This document shows positions 59,674 through 64,000 of a DNA stretch of 64,000 bases, in pieces. The position numbers and the translations under genes are program-made. A model generated the notes under the pieces. That model had not been told where the DNA came from, ran no database searches, and saw only the letters and a list, made by a program, of their open reading frames with translations. The stretch comes from Saksenaea vasiformis B4078. Lineage: Eukaryota > Mucoromycota > Mucoromycetes > Mucorales > Saksenaeaceae. Position 1 is the first letter of the stretch; every line of letters begins with the position of its first letter. The stretch covers positions 279,579-343,578 of the forward strand of contig JNDT01002356.1 of assembly GCA_000697055.1 (NCBI GenBank), read 5' to 3'.

Positions 59674-60945
59674 ATGGCTTCTTGGTGTGAGTGACAATAG
59701 GTCGCTTACAGTGGTGATGTACTCATCTATGTCAATCTGTTCTTTTTCTTCTCAGTTTCACAAATTACAAGCACTGTCTCCAATGTTACTGGTTTAGGCA
59801 CTTCCGTTGAAGAGGTCAAGACCGTTGCTCAGACTGCGGAAAATGGTCAATACTATGGTAAACTTAGTGAGAACGATCTGAACTGGACCTTGGCATCTGG
59901 ATCGTCAACGGAAAACCAAGTTTTCTATGTTACGACAAAAGATGGAGGTTTCGCCTTCGCCCAATTGATTCACTCCAACATTGGGTAAGGCGATACATCA
60001 AGCAATCGTGTAGTTTAACTTCAGCATGATTTTCTCAGCATCTGGAACCCTACAGTGTCCTTTACCTTCCGCTTCTATAACCCCAAAACGAACACCAATG
60101 TCTTCAAGAATATTAATATGTCCAAGTTTGAATTGTCAAGTGACCGTCGTTCAGTCAAGACTGATCACTTCAATATCACTTTGGACCCTTCGCAGACAAC
60201 ATTCAAGGTTGAGATTACTCATCCTGAAGTGGTTGTATCCTTGGATTTTACACGCATCGACCGCGGTTTCAAAGTAGGAGAAGGCAAGACATACTTGGGC
60301 GGAGACCAAAGTTCGTCAGCTGGCTTTGTCTCGCACAAATTCTGGCCACGAGCTCAGGCCAAGGGAACATTTATTGTAAACAAACTTCTGCATGAAGTTG
60401 AAGGTGATGGCATGTTTATTCATGCTATCCAGGGCATGCAACCTCAGCTCATTGCCTCCAACTGGAATTTTGTCAATTTCCAAGCTCCAGGCACGGCACT
60501 GTCAATGATGCAGTTCCAGACCACCAAGCAGTACGGCGCAATCGAGATTAACCAAGGCTCTCTCGTTCTAAACGACAAGCTCATCTGTGTATCCGTAGAC
60601 AATCATGTGGAACTACTTGATCTTCGAAAAGATGCAGATACTGGCTACGACATTCCCCAGAAGATTAAACTGACATGGAGCGGAAAGACAATTGTAGAGC
60701 AGGAGAACGAGGAACCAAAAGGTGTATCCATTGTCATGGTTGTCGATGTCAAGAATTTGGTGGACAAGATTGACGTACTGGCTGAAATTCCTTGGTTCCT
60801 CAAGAAGCTTGTCCAAACCTTTGTTGTCAAACCCTACATTTATCAATGGCTTGACACCGCTAAAGCTGAGATTGTTGTAGGCGATGATAAGGTAGAAGTC
60901 GAAGGCAAATGCTTCCAAGAGTTGGTGTTTGTATCCGGCTTTTAA
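59674..60945 (+). CDS. SVF1: Survival factor Svf1 (lipocalin-like, ceramide trafficking/oxidative stress)
   Basis: Exons 59674-59686 (13 nt), 59756-59984 and 60039-60945, in phase, 382 residues, close to the normal Svf1 length. The tiny first exon gives MASW and joins to FSQITSTVSNVTGLG, like the amphipathic N-terminus that targets yeast Svf1 to membranes. Family blocks: YYGKLSENDLNWTLASGSS, FAFAQLIHSNIG, SFTFRFYNPKT, FIHAIQGMQPQLIASNWNFV, NFQAPGTALSMMQFQTTKQY and a C-terminal GKCFQELVFVSGF. Svf1 supports survival under oxidative stress and has been linked to ceramide transport between ER and Golgi. Confidence 0.93.
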
Positions 60946-61028: not shown

Positions 61029-61803
61029 TATTTTACTCTTCATCTTGTAAAAAACCGCAAGGCCTATTCTTGTTTCAATTTGACTATTTGAAATACCACT
61101 TCTTAATTGGTAATAAATTTTAAAAGATGATTTATTCGTTCATGTTTAGTTTATGATAGCAAGCAGAAACTCTAGTAGTGAACTTTCTCACCTCTTCATC
61201 AGCCTTCCATACATCCATACCTTTGATGTATGCCTCAATATATCGCTTACAGTGTTTGAAGTATCTTTGTATTTTCATAGGCACTTGATCTGGAGGAGAC
61301 GCACTGTCTAGACTGGCAGGTACGCACTGTGAAGGCCTGTAAATGTATAGTCACGTTTGGCACATGCTTCTCTCTTTACATCAGACCAGTATCTCTCGAT
61401 CCAATCGCCCCTGCCGTGAAATTTTGGATAGATATCGAAGAGTAAATGAGGTTTAAAAAGGACCTCTTGAAGGGCGGACCACTGAAGAAGGGGCTGTCAT
61501 AAGTCTGCGCGCTACCATATATAGTAGATACGCGCTTTAAATCCCGCCTAAATTTGGTTAAATATTGTACCATGGTTCAAGTTGAAGTTGCCCTGCTTAA
61601 AGTAGCCAACTTTGAAGCGAATCAACTTTTTTTTCCGAGGCAACTCTCAAACTTTCGGCATGAAATCTATAGACAATAACTAAAAGAACATTTCTGATGC
61701 AAAATATCCTGATTTTTCTTTATGTGTAAGATGCTGAAAAGATTCCAAGTGCTGCTACGCGCTTGCGGTTTTTTACTTGTTTGCACCATATTTTACTCTT
61801 CAT
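61029..61803. repeat. Short direct and inverted repeats bracketing the transposase remnant
   Basis: A 15-base direct repeat TATTTTACTCTTCAT occurs at 61029-61043 and 61789-61803. Just inside it, CTTGCGGTTTTTTAC occurs at 61762-61776 and as its reverse complement at 61047-61061. Together they enclose the DDE transposase remnant and lie 32 bp short of the Fanzor stop codon. On the right, 12 bases separate the inverted repeat from the direct repeat (3 on the left), so this is not a perfect terminal repeat plus target duplication. Confidence 0.45.
61132..61496 (-). pseudogene. DDE-superfamily transposase C-terminal remnant
   Basis: On the minus strand a frame reads QPLLQWSALQEVLFKPHL, then LLFDIYPKFHGRGDWIERYW and SDVKREACAKRDYTF. 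A second frame, one base shifted (near 61309-61325), continues ASLDSASPPDQVPMKIQRYF and KHCKRYIEAYIKG to a TAA at 61132-61134. The YPKFH....WIE.YW block is the final acidic-residue motif of IS630/Tc1-like DDE endonucleases in fungi (usually YPKFHCELNFIE..W), and RYFxxCxRYxxAY is their usual C-terminal helix. A TGA at 61497-61499 and the frameshift show it is dead. It lies directly downstream of the Fanzor gene in the same orientation. Confidence 0.6.
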
Positions 61804-61834
61804 CCCGTAGAATACCCTGTTCTCCGAACTAAAA

Positions 61835-64000
61835 CTAGTTATGGGATTCGGCTGTGTGATCAGCCGAGTTCGTTCGGCGAAAAGGAGGAGGACGCTCGTT
61901 TTCGCTCCGCATCATGTACGTGAAGACCTTCCAGATGTTACTCGCGGCCATGCGGTCCCGATCCCAGAAATTCCCCGTGCATGAACTGTTTTGACACTTC
62001 AACACAGCGTGGATCTTCATTGCTTGGCCGTCTGCATCTTGTTTCTCCTTGGCATTCTTTAAATCGCGTATACCACAGAGAGGACAGATTTTCGATGTTA
62101 AATATTCATCTATCATAAAGACGAAAGTGGGAACCTAGAGACAGGTGTGAGTAATGTCCTAGCTTGAATATCACTTACACTTCGTTGTTTTGCCTTCTGT
62201 TTGAGTTTGCTGACTATTGCCTTCGTTGGTGCAGCTGGTCTGCCTTTCATACTCCCGGAGAAGGCGGCATCCCCGTACGCGATGATGATTGGGCGGTTTC
62301 TTTCGTCAGCTTCATCATTCGGCGAACGCGGCACCCATTTTTTCTTGCTTGCTTTTTTCATGTTTTTCGTATTCTTGTGATCGTATTTCGCGCTCCCATA
62401 CAGGAGACGATTAGCAATTTCATTTGTTCCTTTTTGTCTCCCGATGTAGGATTTGAATTTCAATTTGCTATATCTTAAGTAAAGTTGTCAGTGCAAAAAG
62501 AAGAGACTGTCACTCCCACAGTATACCTGAGATCGCGGTCGTAGAAGCCGGTAATCCTGTCGTAATGGGTAAATATGTATGACATTGCCGAAGTCATTTC
62601 TCCTAAATCCACTGTTTTCAGCGAGGGAATCTTATCGATGATAGATTTCGTTTCGGGTTCTTTCTCAAGGTAAGAATTTCGTAAGCGAGTCGCATGGTTA
62701 AATCCACAAAGAGAATAATACTCTTTGGTTGTGGTTCGGCGTACTCTGTGGGGTGTATTACCACCTCCATCCGCAGCCACGAATAAACTTGAGACCCCGG
62801 GGTCGACGCCCCAGATTACCGCGTCTGGATACTTGTCTTTGATATCGGCCGGCGTAAGGGCTTTTCGCTTCGGATCGAAAGGAGTCTTGTATTTTTTAAA
62901 AAGGAACTCGATATCCACGCCATTGGTGCGGATTGTGTCCCTATGAACCATGTCAGAAGTACTCCCAAAAAATCGTACAAATCTACCAAAATATCGAAGT
63001 CTCTGTCTCAAGACTTCCAAAGGTCTTGTGCCCGATTTTCGCCATATCAAACACGCGGAAATATTCGCGCCGTACATCTGCTGTTTTCCAGGCCGAGTCA
63101 CTATCACGCATACCAGCTTGAGTGAGCAATCGACCAAACGCCTGACTGTCGATGGTTATATGTCGCATCTGGAGACTGTACAGCGGAAGGATCGTAAATT
63201 TTCTTGATCCTTTTGGGTCCGTGTATTTGTGCGGGAAAAATGAATCGTTCTCAATTGAACTTATGGTATCTTTGATAAACTTCTCGACAGCCAAGATCTC
63301 TGTCTCTGGAAGGGTTTTGATCTTCTTTGGTAGTTTCAGAGCGGAACGGTTTTTAATAGCTGTTCTGATTGCGTATTTGAGACTTGACATGATCGGCTTT
63401 GACATATTGCTCGTATTTACTAACTATAAAGTAGATCAGTCACCGGATGTATAGCAGGCAAACATTACCTCTTTGGTCTTTCGATGAATGTACCCTAACG
63501 ATACATACTTCTGCGGTTTTGGTTCTTTGATTGATACCTTTTTGTTAAAGCGTTCCAGAATATGGAAGAACCAAGGTAAAAAGAGATGCGGTTCGGCATT
63601 CAGTATCTTCTCGTCGATCTTGCTGACACCAATGATTTTCTGAACCGTTGCGACTTGGTCATTTACATATTTTCGATTCTCCTTCGTGCGCGGAATCGAG
63701 CCAGGCCAAGAGTGGTCATCACCACAGACTTTGTGATAGATTATGTTCGCGACCGTTCGGCGATCTTTTATTGGTAATGCCTTCAGGACAGCAGAGTTAT
63801 CGTCGTCAGACATGCACACCAGCAAGTATTGTTTGGTTCGTCTTTCAAAGTTCTCTGTAATGTGATTTCGGATTGTTTCTTCGTACTCCTTCGCAGCTGA
63901 TGAGATGATTGTCATGAATCCTTCGGAATGAAAATTTGAAGGATCAAAGCTAGGTATCGATAGCTTGAATGCGGCATACGTTTCTTGCAACGTTGCATCC
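61835..64000 (-). CDS. Fanzor, eukaryotic TnpB-like RNA-guided nuclease (5' end beyond window)
   Basis: Proposed exons, 5' to 3' on the minus strand: before 64000 to 63469; 63423 to about 63000; about 62980 to 62527; 62467-62179; 62134-61835. All three RuvC acidic positions are visible: Asp in VIWGVDPGVSSLFVAADG (codon at 62802-62804), Glu in FVFMIDEYLTSKICPLCG (62105-62107) and Asp in NFWDRDRMAASNIWKV (61955-61957). A CPLCG...CQNSSC zinc ribbon lies between the last two, as in TnpB/OrfB. Other Fanzor-like blocks: YFRVFDMAKIGHK, VHRDTIRTNGVDIEFLFKKY and IIIAYGDAAFSGSMKGRPAA. Fanzors cut DNA guided by an omega-RNA usually encoded at the 3' end of the element. Between 63010 and 62970 the frame shifts by one base without a plausible intron, so the copy may be broken there or mis-assembled. 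The N-terminus is outside the window. Confidence 0.85.

Follow-up and report, generated by a model that had tools for sequence, protein, structure and literature searches.

In Spu-1, the Fanzor1 element of Spizellomyces punctatus, the guide is taken from DNA beyond the right end of the element. According to the available parts of PMC3627910 and PMC10432273, this element has inverted repeats and putative TA duplications, and its stop codon is separated from its right end by an RNA region. The Chlamydomonas Fanzor1 elements CRe-1, CRe-2 and CRe-3 are algal Helitron2 transposons found at TTTT or T-rich insertion sites, often with duplications; in the same source (PMC3627910, in part) the Helitron-borne Fanzors are algal Helitron2 elements, and the Fanzor elements of Mucorales are MuDR-like or unclassified. 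Cleavage activity is on record for one Mucorales Fanzor1, PpFz1 of Parasitella (PMC11423790, in part). A parallel between Fanzors and the TnpB of IS200/IS605, which is associated with a Y1 HUH transposase, is drawn in PMC10432273; for Fanzors inside Helitrons this parallel has been drawn and not tested in the literature, as far as the accessible sections of that paper go.

The locus described here lies at the right edge of a stretch of 64,000 nucleotides of the Saksenaea vasiformis B4078 genome (C624:279579-343578), referred to as the window. It is read, with a probability of about 70%, as a Helitron1-borne Fanzor1 locus in which the stop codon of the gene and the terminus of the transposon are fused, and this reading includes a predicted guide RNA and a predicted mechanism of empty-site cutting. 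With SpuFz1, the protein of Spu-1, it has in common the same D/E/D triad, residue by residue; unlike Spu-1, it has no inverted repeats seen at its ends, and zero bases separate stop codon and end. With the CRe elements it shares a multi-exon gene carried as cargo by a non-autonomous Helitron, but it has Helitron1 ends, a fungal host, insertion between AA and TTA, and the stop codon fused to the terminus. The proposed logic, a single-strand HUH transposon together with an RNA-guided nuclease whose guide comes from the right flank, would be that of the IS200/IS605 TnpB, whereas the latter systems are bacterial, with the canonical Glu and a distinct transposase.

The gene occupies the minus strand from 64000 to 61835, and the coordinates and strand given for a spliced Fanzor gene in the preliminary description were right. 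It has five exons with 656 residues open, and its N-terminus is cut by the contig end, the right edge of the window being the end of contig C624. The exons, delimited by the open frame and four GT-AG introns (45, 46, 59 and 44 bp), are exon a (63469-64000), which encodes the truncated N-terminal part; exon b (62987-63423); exon c (62527-62940), containing RuvC-I (VDPGV); exon d (62179-62467), containing the RuvC-II strand (AYGDAAF), in which the canonical Glu has given way to another residue; and exon e (61835-62134), which encodes the alternative Glu, the zinc ribbon, RuvC-III and a C-terminal tail translated from the end of the transposon. The sole stop of the spliced frame is the TAG at 61837-61835; the remaining two frames contain 30 and 27 stops. 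The four introns were recognisable in 10/10 other aligned rows, in five of which a splice site was lost (the acceptor in C371 and C648, the donor in C6, C13 and C151).

By its motifs and matches the protein is a Fanzor. A Pfam PF07282 match was obtained at 28.6 bits (cut-off 26.3), and a PDB sequence search at E<=1 gave just two distinct matches, SpuFz1 (1.5e-7) and, more weakly, GtFz1 of Guillardia (0.001), with no Parasitella entry among them; these matches fall within the TnpB/Fanzor clade, in agreement with the earlier assignment. The D, E, D triad and the Cys4 ribbon reported in the preliminary description were likewise borne out. In the numbering of the partial protein, D369 of RuvC-I (codon 62802-62804, minus strand), E567, the Fanzor-type alternative RuvC-II Glu (62105-62107), and D617 of RuvC-III in WDRD (61955-61957) were aligned with D383, E541 and D606 of SpuFz1, which are named as catalytic or metal-binding in the available parts of PMC10432273 and PMC11423790. 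The zinc ribbon, CxxC...CxxxxC, identified from the frame and PF07282, extends over 61979-62086, with Cys codons at 62086-62084, 62077-62075, 61996-61994 and 61981-61979.

Two features distinguish Fanzors from ordinary TnpB in the accessible text of PMC10711439, a DPG motif and a Glu that precedes the zinc finger by six residues. Both were found here, the former in RuvC-I (WGVDPGV, D369) and the latter as E567-YLTSKI-C574, six residues before the first zinc Cys, together with the OrfB zinc ribbon/TNB domain and the RuvC-III Asp (D617). The canonical RuvC-II position, as judged by eye, is occupied by Gly in AYGDAAF. The protein is likely a Fanzor1 rather than a Fanzor2, both structure-sequence matches being Fanzor1 proteins. 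A TDG motif of the WED domain is a Fanzor1 criterion in the sections available of PMC10711439; families A and B (see below) carry TNG (IRTNGVD) and the relative P0003 carries TDG, these being presumed to correspond to the WED motif. The N-terminal helix-turn-helix domain of TnpB was absent from the Pfam matches of the protein.

The closest proteins found were five matches with 38-48% identity over the aligned parts, among them Mucoromycotina Fanzors from Rhizomucor pusillus (P0001), Umbelopsis nana (P0004) and Apophysomyces sp. (P0005), whose tails differ from that of the present Fanzor. A wider search with a five-sequence alignment, in which 7,999 candidates were scored, gave four proteins; two had not come up before, a named one from Helicostylum pulchrum and an unnamed one. 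No relatives on viral contigs were confirmed with exon e (99 aa) as query.

When the 38.7-Mb genome (666 contigs) was searched with the locus, about a dozen copies were found, in which, C371 excepted, the similarity ends no more than three bases from one point beside the stop codon; the copies also share a common 5' start 4.1 kb from that end. Further copies and a conserved 3' boundary, the joint absence of which would have spoken against the preliminary description, are thus both present. The window contains the 3' 2,166 nt (61835-64000, minus strand) of an element of 4,097 bp with sharp common ends and differing flanks, which was assigned to family A (the names of families A to D were coined in the present analysis). 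The whole element, including the 5' half missing from the window, was read in the overlapping contig C371 (C371:23124-27220). A nested repeat of about 265 bp was noted in this 5' half (L010:315-577, element nt 191-453), with at least 30 further copies of 88-90% identity among the best 40 of 459 candidates scored.

Helitron1 elements insert between A and T without target-site duplication. In the available text of PMC5148889 their further features are a 5'-TC end and a CTRR 3' end with a hairpin that lies about 10-12 nt away from this terminus. The 5' end of the family-A element, TCTAGAAAAGG, starts with 5'-TC; this pattern was found at 8 places and that of the 3' end at 13, against 0 for either reversed control (a degenerate family-A end pattern, with 13 hits against 13 in its reversed control, was unusable as a count). 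The copy in C655 has a diverged 5' end in which TC is retained, and AA stands directly left of TC in 7/8 left ends, C10 and C115 being counted once. The 3' terminus is CTAG (61835-61838 in the window), the last three bases of which are the stop codon TAG, in 11/11 distinct family-A insertions (the window, C282, C6, C655, C10, C4, C151, C559, C648, C110 and C623), and it is followed by T on the right in 10 of the 11. A terminal hairpin, TCGGCTG-ATCACA-CAGCCGA (61848-61867, arms 61867-61861 and 61854-61848), lies within the coding sequence, its stem ending 13 nt from the terminus and 9 nt before CTAG. No target-site duplication was seen at the four sites where both flanks were compared, and two joined-flank patterns, covering two insertions, gave 0 hits in the genome for an empty pre-insertion site.

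From these termini the carrier is a Helitron1-type element. It is also non-autonomous, since RepHel is absent from it: no match was found between RepHel frames and the 4,097-bp element. RepHel is present in the genome (23 PF14214 matches), and none with the same termini was found there; in the RepHel elements at C648 and C282 the 3' end was not reached, as both copies part inside the helicase. A terminal-inverted-repeat transposon was ruled out by eye, the ends not mirroring each other, and a host-domesticated gene was ruled out by the multiple copies and mobile ends.

Some RepHel sequence was found near Fanzors of family B. At C457:1392-10081 (L048, L014), read as two stretches about 0.9 kb apart, RepHel frames that are broken or intron-bearing lie upstream of a same-strand family-B Fanzor ending in CTAG followed by TTA, which is possibly a Helitron that has carried both RepHel and Fanzor. 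From the helicase end to the Fanzor frame no CT[AT]GTT was present and there were seven generic matches to CTRR followed by T, so that a separate RepHel end may lie between the two genes. Jumbled RepHel pieces adjoin the family-B boundary in C527.

The coincidence of stop codon and terminus extends to 7/7 family-B copies read (C527, C55, C384, C457, C299 twice, and C648), in which the stop TAG is again the end of CTAG and the terminal hairpin again coding; between the Fanzor proteins of families A and B, identity is 43-47% along most of the sequence. A family B/D end pattern gave 21 hits, part of which were read, against 1 in the control. Family D (C633, C235) differs in having its end 20 nt beyond the stop codon, and C626 is similar, ending in CTTG. 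In the six copies of family C the end lies 23 nt past the stop codon and is also CTTG, which, as in C626, falls outside CTRR. The bases before the family-C stop codon (GCCGTATCCCTT) match, by eye, those of the family-A copy C10, as though a new terminus farther downstream had taken the place of an older one. Two diverged relatives of family A, L029 (C620) and L142 (C526), have about 47 extra bases in common and end in GACTAG followed by T; their terminus seems to have moved downstream of the family-A end. At L146 (C648:132500-132900), ACCTAGTTATGTAAAGAAAAAAGAGGAATTATAAAGCAG recurs downstream of a family-B end, as if terminus and flank had been duplicated.

At least 137 Fanzor zinc-ribbon matches were found in the 38.7-Mb genome (150 scored of 388 candidates), which is apparently rich in Fanzors of several families. 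Among 97 zinc-ribbon loci examined, 95 had a readable 3' end and nine of these, all of family A or B, a stop codon formed by CTAG before TT; Fanzors in general thus do not share the fusion of stop codon and terminus. Two further loci have a CTAG stop with no T after it and look like premature stops.

In the right flanks of 27 distinct insertions of families A to D, the first base is T in 25, the second is T in all 27 and the third is A in 24, and from the fourth base onwards the bases are mixed (the diverged C620 and C526 were dropped, as were C371, C13 and C115, whose flanks are those of the window, C6 and C10 again). In the window this flanking host DNA is 61815-61834 (minus strand), where, by the alignment of distinct-insertion flanks, the constant TT is followed by a predicted guide from about the fourth base. 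Because zero bases lie between stop codon and element end, a guide RNA of the known kind would have to overlap the coding sequence and use the flank as guide, and the fusion would thus fix the position of the scaffold. A guide RNA overlapping the C-terminal codons has a precedent in GtFz1, where 17 aa are involved (PMC10432273, in part).

In the mechanism proposed, RepHel from other Helitrons of the genome would move the element into sites between AA and TTA. Transcripts continuing past the stop codon would leave the element at once, and the last 60-120 nt or so of the coding RNA would act as the guide-RNA scaffold. This scaffold may also take in the constant TT(A) of the target, the next 15 nt or so of flank serving as guide; the constant TTA could be part of the scaffold by analogy with the constant flanking bases or duplications taken into scaffolds in the available text of PMC10711439. 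The Fanzor-RNA complex would then recognise and cut the AA-flanked empty copy, on the sister chromatid or in another nucleus, and repair of the cut site would copy the element in; the same has been proposed for TnpB together with the IS200/IS605 HUH transposase. As target motif, the AA to the left of the insertion is predicted. Both ends of the elements are fixed exactly, and the 27 insertion sites predict both this motif and the start of the guide. These exact ends and 27 flanks, and the presence of four diverged families side by side in a single genome, open the idea to a direct test in yeast. It is conceivable, at rather less than even odds, that there is a Helitron1-Fanzor clade in which stop codon, 3' end and scaffold/guide junction are the same few nucleotides. 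Each insertion would then automatically issue a guide against its own empty site, and the clade would be a eukaryotic counterpart of the IS200/IS605 pairing of HUH transposase and TnpB, with the transposon end written in the C-terminal codons.

Slow synonymous sites might be expected from an embedded guide-RNA gene. Towards the 3' end of the coding sequence, synonymous divergence showed no drop (pS 0.134 in the last segment of the gene, with a range of 0.069-0.149 over the gene). Covariation in the hairpin was weak, with one compensatory pair, a value reached in 54/500 shuffles, and unpaired cells at 2/7 pairs. The fold z-scores of the window copy were -4.1 for the last 50 nt, -1.4 for the last 100 nt and -2.6 with the flank, and the pieces folded from families B, C and D gave +0.3 to -0.9, with no standout. 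In the last eight codons pN was 0.135 and pS 0.104, against a gene-wide ratio of 0.30, while AACTAG and 4/7 hairpin pairs were invariant in 11 rows. The C-terminal residues varying while AACTAG and these pairs are fixed, a constraint on nucleic acid rather than on protein would fit; the synonymous sites, the covariation and the folds speak against it.

Past purifying selection on the Fanzor is clear from the comparison of the window with ten other rows, among them C371 (same locus as the window) and C13 (same locus as C6), which gave dN/dS of 0.18-0.34 and a pooled pN/pS of 0.30. The intact look of the active site noted in the preliminary description holds for the window as written; in the other rows, the one from the same locus included, it does not carry over. 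Frameshifts occur in all ten, and reference-frame stops in seven as well, so that the window is the sole unbroken row; the family-B copies L011, L014 and L015 each seem, by eye, to carry a lesion. These lesions give substance to the reading that the family is a dead relic making no protein, or that the unbroken frame is an assembly product formed among repeats at a contig end, a reading that comes close to an even chance without reaching it. It is also favoured by C371, whose flank matches that of the window at 100.000% identity for 4,524 bp yet which is broken within the element, where nt 373-1604 contain two frame-breaking deletions (2-bp and 10-bp) and twelve other differences; one difference destroys an intron acceptor, and 4/14 match the copy in C282. 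From these alleles, either one contig of the pair C371/C624 is a patchwork, or the pair represents two alleles between which conversion has occurred. Against the suspicion of the window, C371 has 27/31 of the window alleles missing from the nine other rows, and it is C371 that contains the C282-like alleles, so that of the two sequences the window may be the more faithful. Because C371 conflicts with the window and all other rows are frame-broken, an active copy is not claimed, and most copies, perhaps the window copy too, are now broken; the relic reading concerns present activity and not the anatomy of the locus. The pairs of contigs with the same insertion, C371/C624, C6/C13 and C10/C115, are unmerged overlaps or haplotigs; the C10 and C115 stretches are identical, and C6 and C13 differ in lesions.

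The anatomy itself could have arisen in other ways. Helitrons capture genes, and this one could have taken up a Fanzor gene passively, as others take up host genes, the stop codon having become the terminus by chance and the nuclease having no role in transposition. Such capture is established for Helitrons; a guide-scaffold constraint was undetected at synonymous sites, and stop codon and end are apart in families C and D and in C620 and C526. We nevertheless consider it unlikely, because four Fanzor families have common ends of CT[AT]G followed by TTA, so that the association of Fanzor and Helitron is old, and because purifying selection on the protein lasted while the copies multiplied. Very improbable is another transposon lacking inverted repeats, Crypton- or IS607-like, with TC...CTAG and the insertion between A and T coincidental. 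Two Mucor Fanzor families are unclassified in the available text of PMC3627910, one of them with part of a Crypton transposase, and the 4.1-kb element has no RepHel; but TC, CTAG, a hairpin 9 nt before CTAG, insertion between A and T, zero duplication and a genomic RepHel would all have to coincide. The Helitron1-borne Fanzor1 locus remains the preferred reading.

The guide region suggested in the preliminary description (about 61550-61900, minus strand) is retained for the part at the end of the gene; most of it lies outside the element, in an unrelated 744-bp insertion (61788-61045). Because the element ends at 61835, any guide RNA would be encoded by the last part of the gene together with some 15-20 bases of flank. 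The 744-bp element has short inverted ends (GTAAAAAACCGCAAG) and is flanked by a 16-bp direct repeat (GATGAAGAGTAAAATA), the whole (window 61804-61029) lying 30 bp beyond the Helitron end; partial related copies were found in C170, C498, C225, C665 and C603. Farther on, window 60019-60945 contains an Svf1-like (oxidative stress survival) gene, 90% identical to that of Apophysomyces ossiformis.
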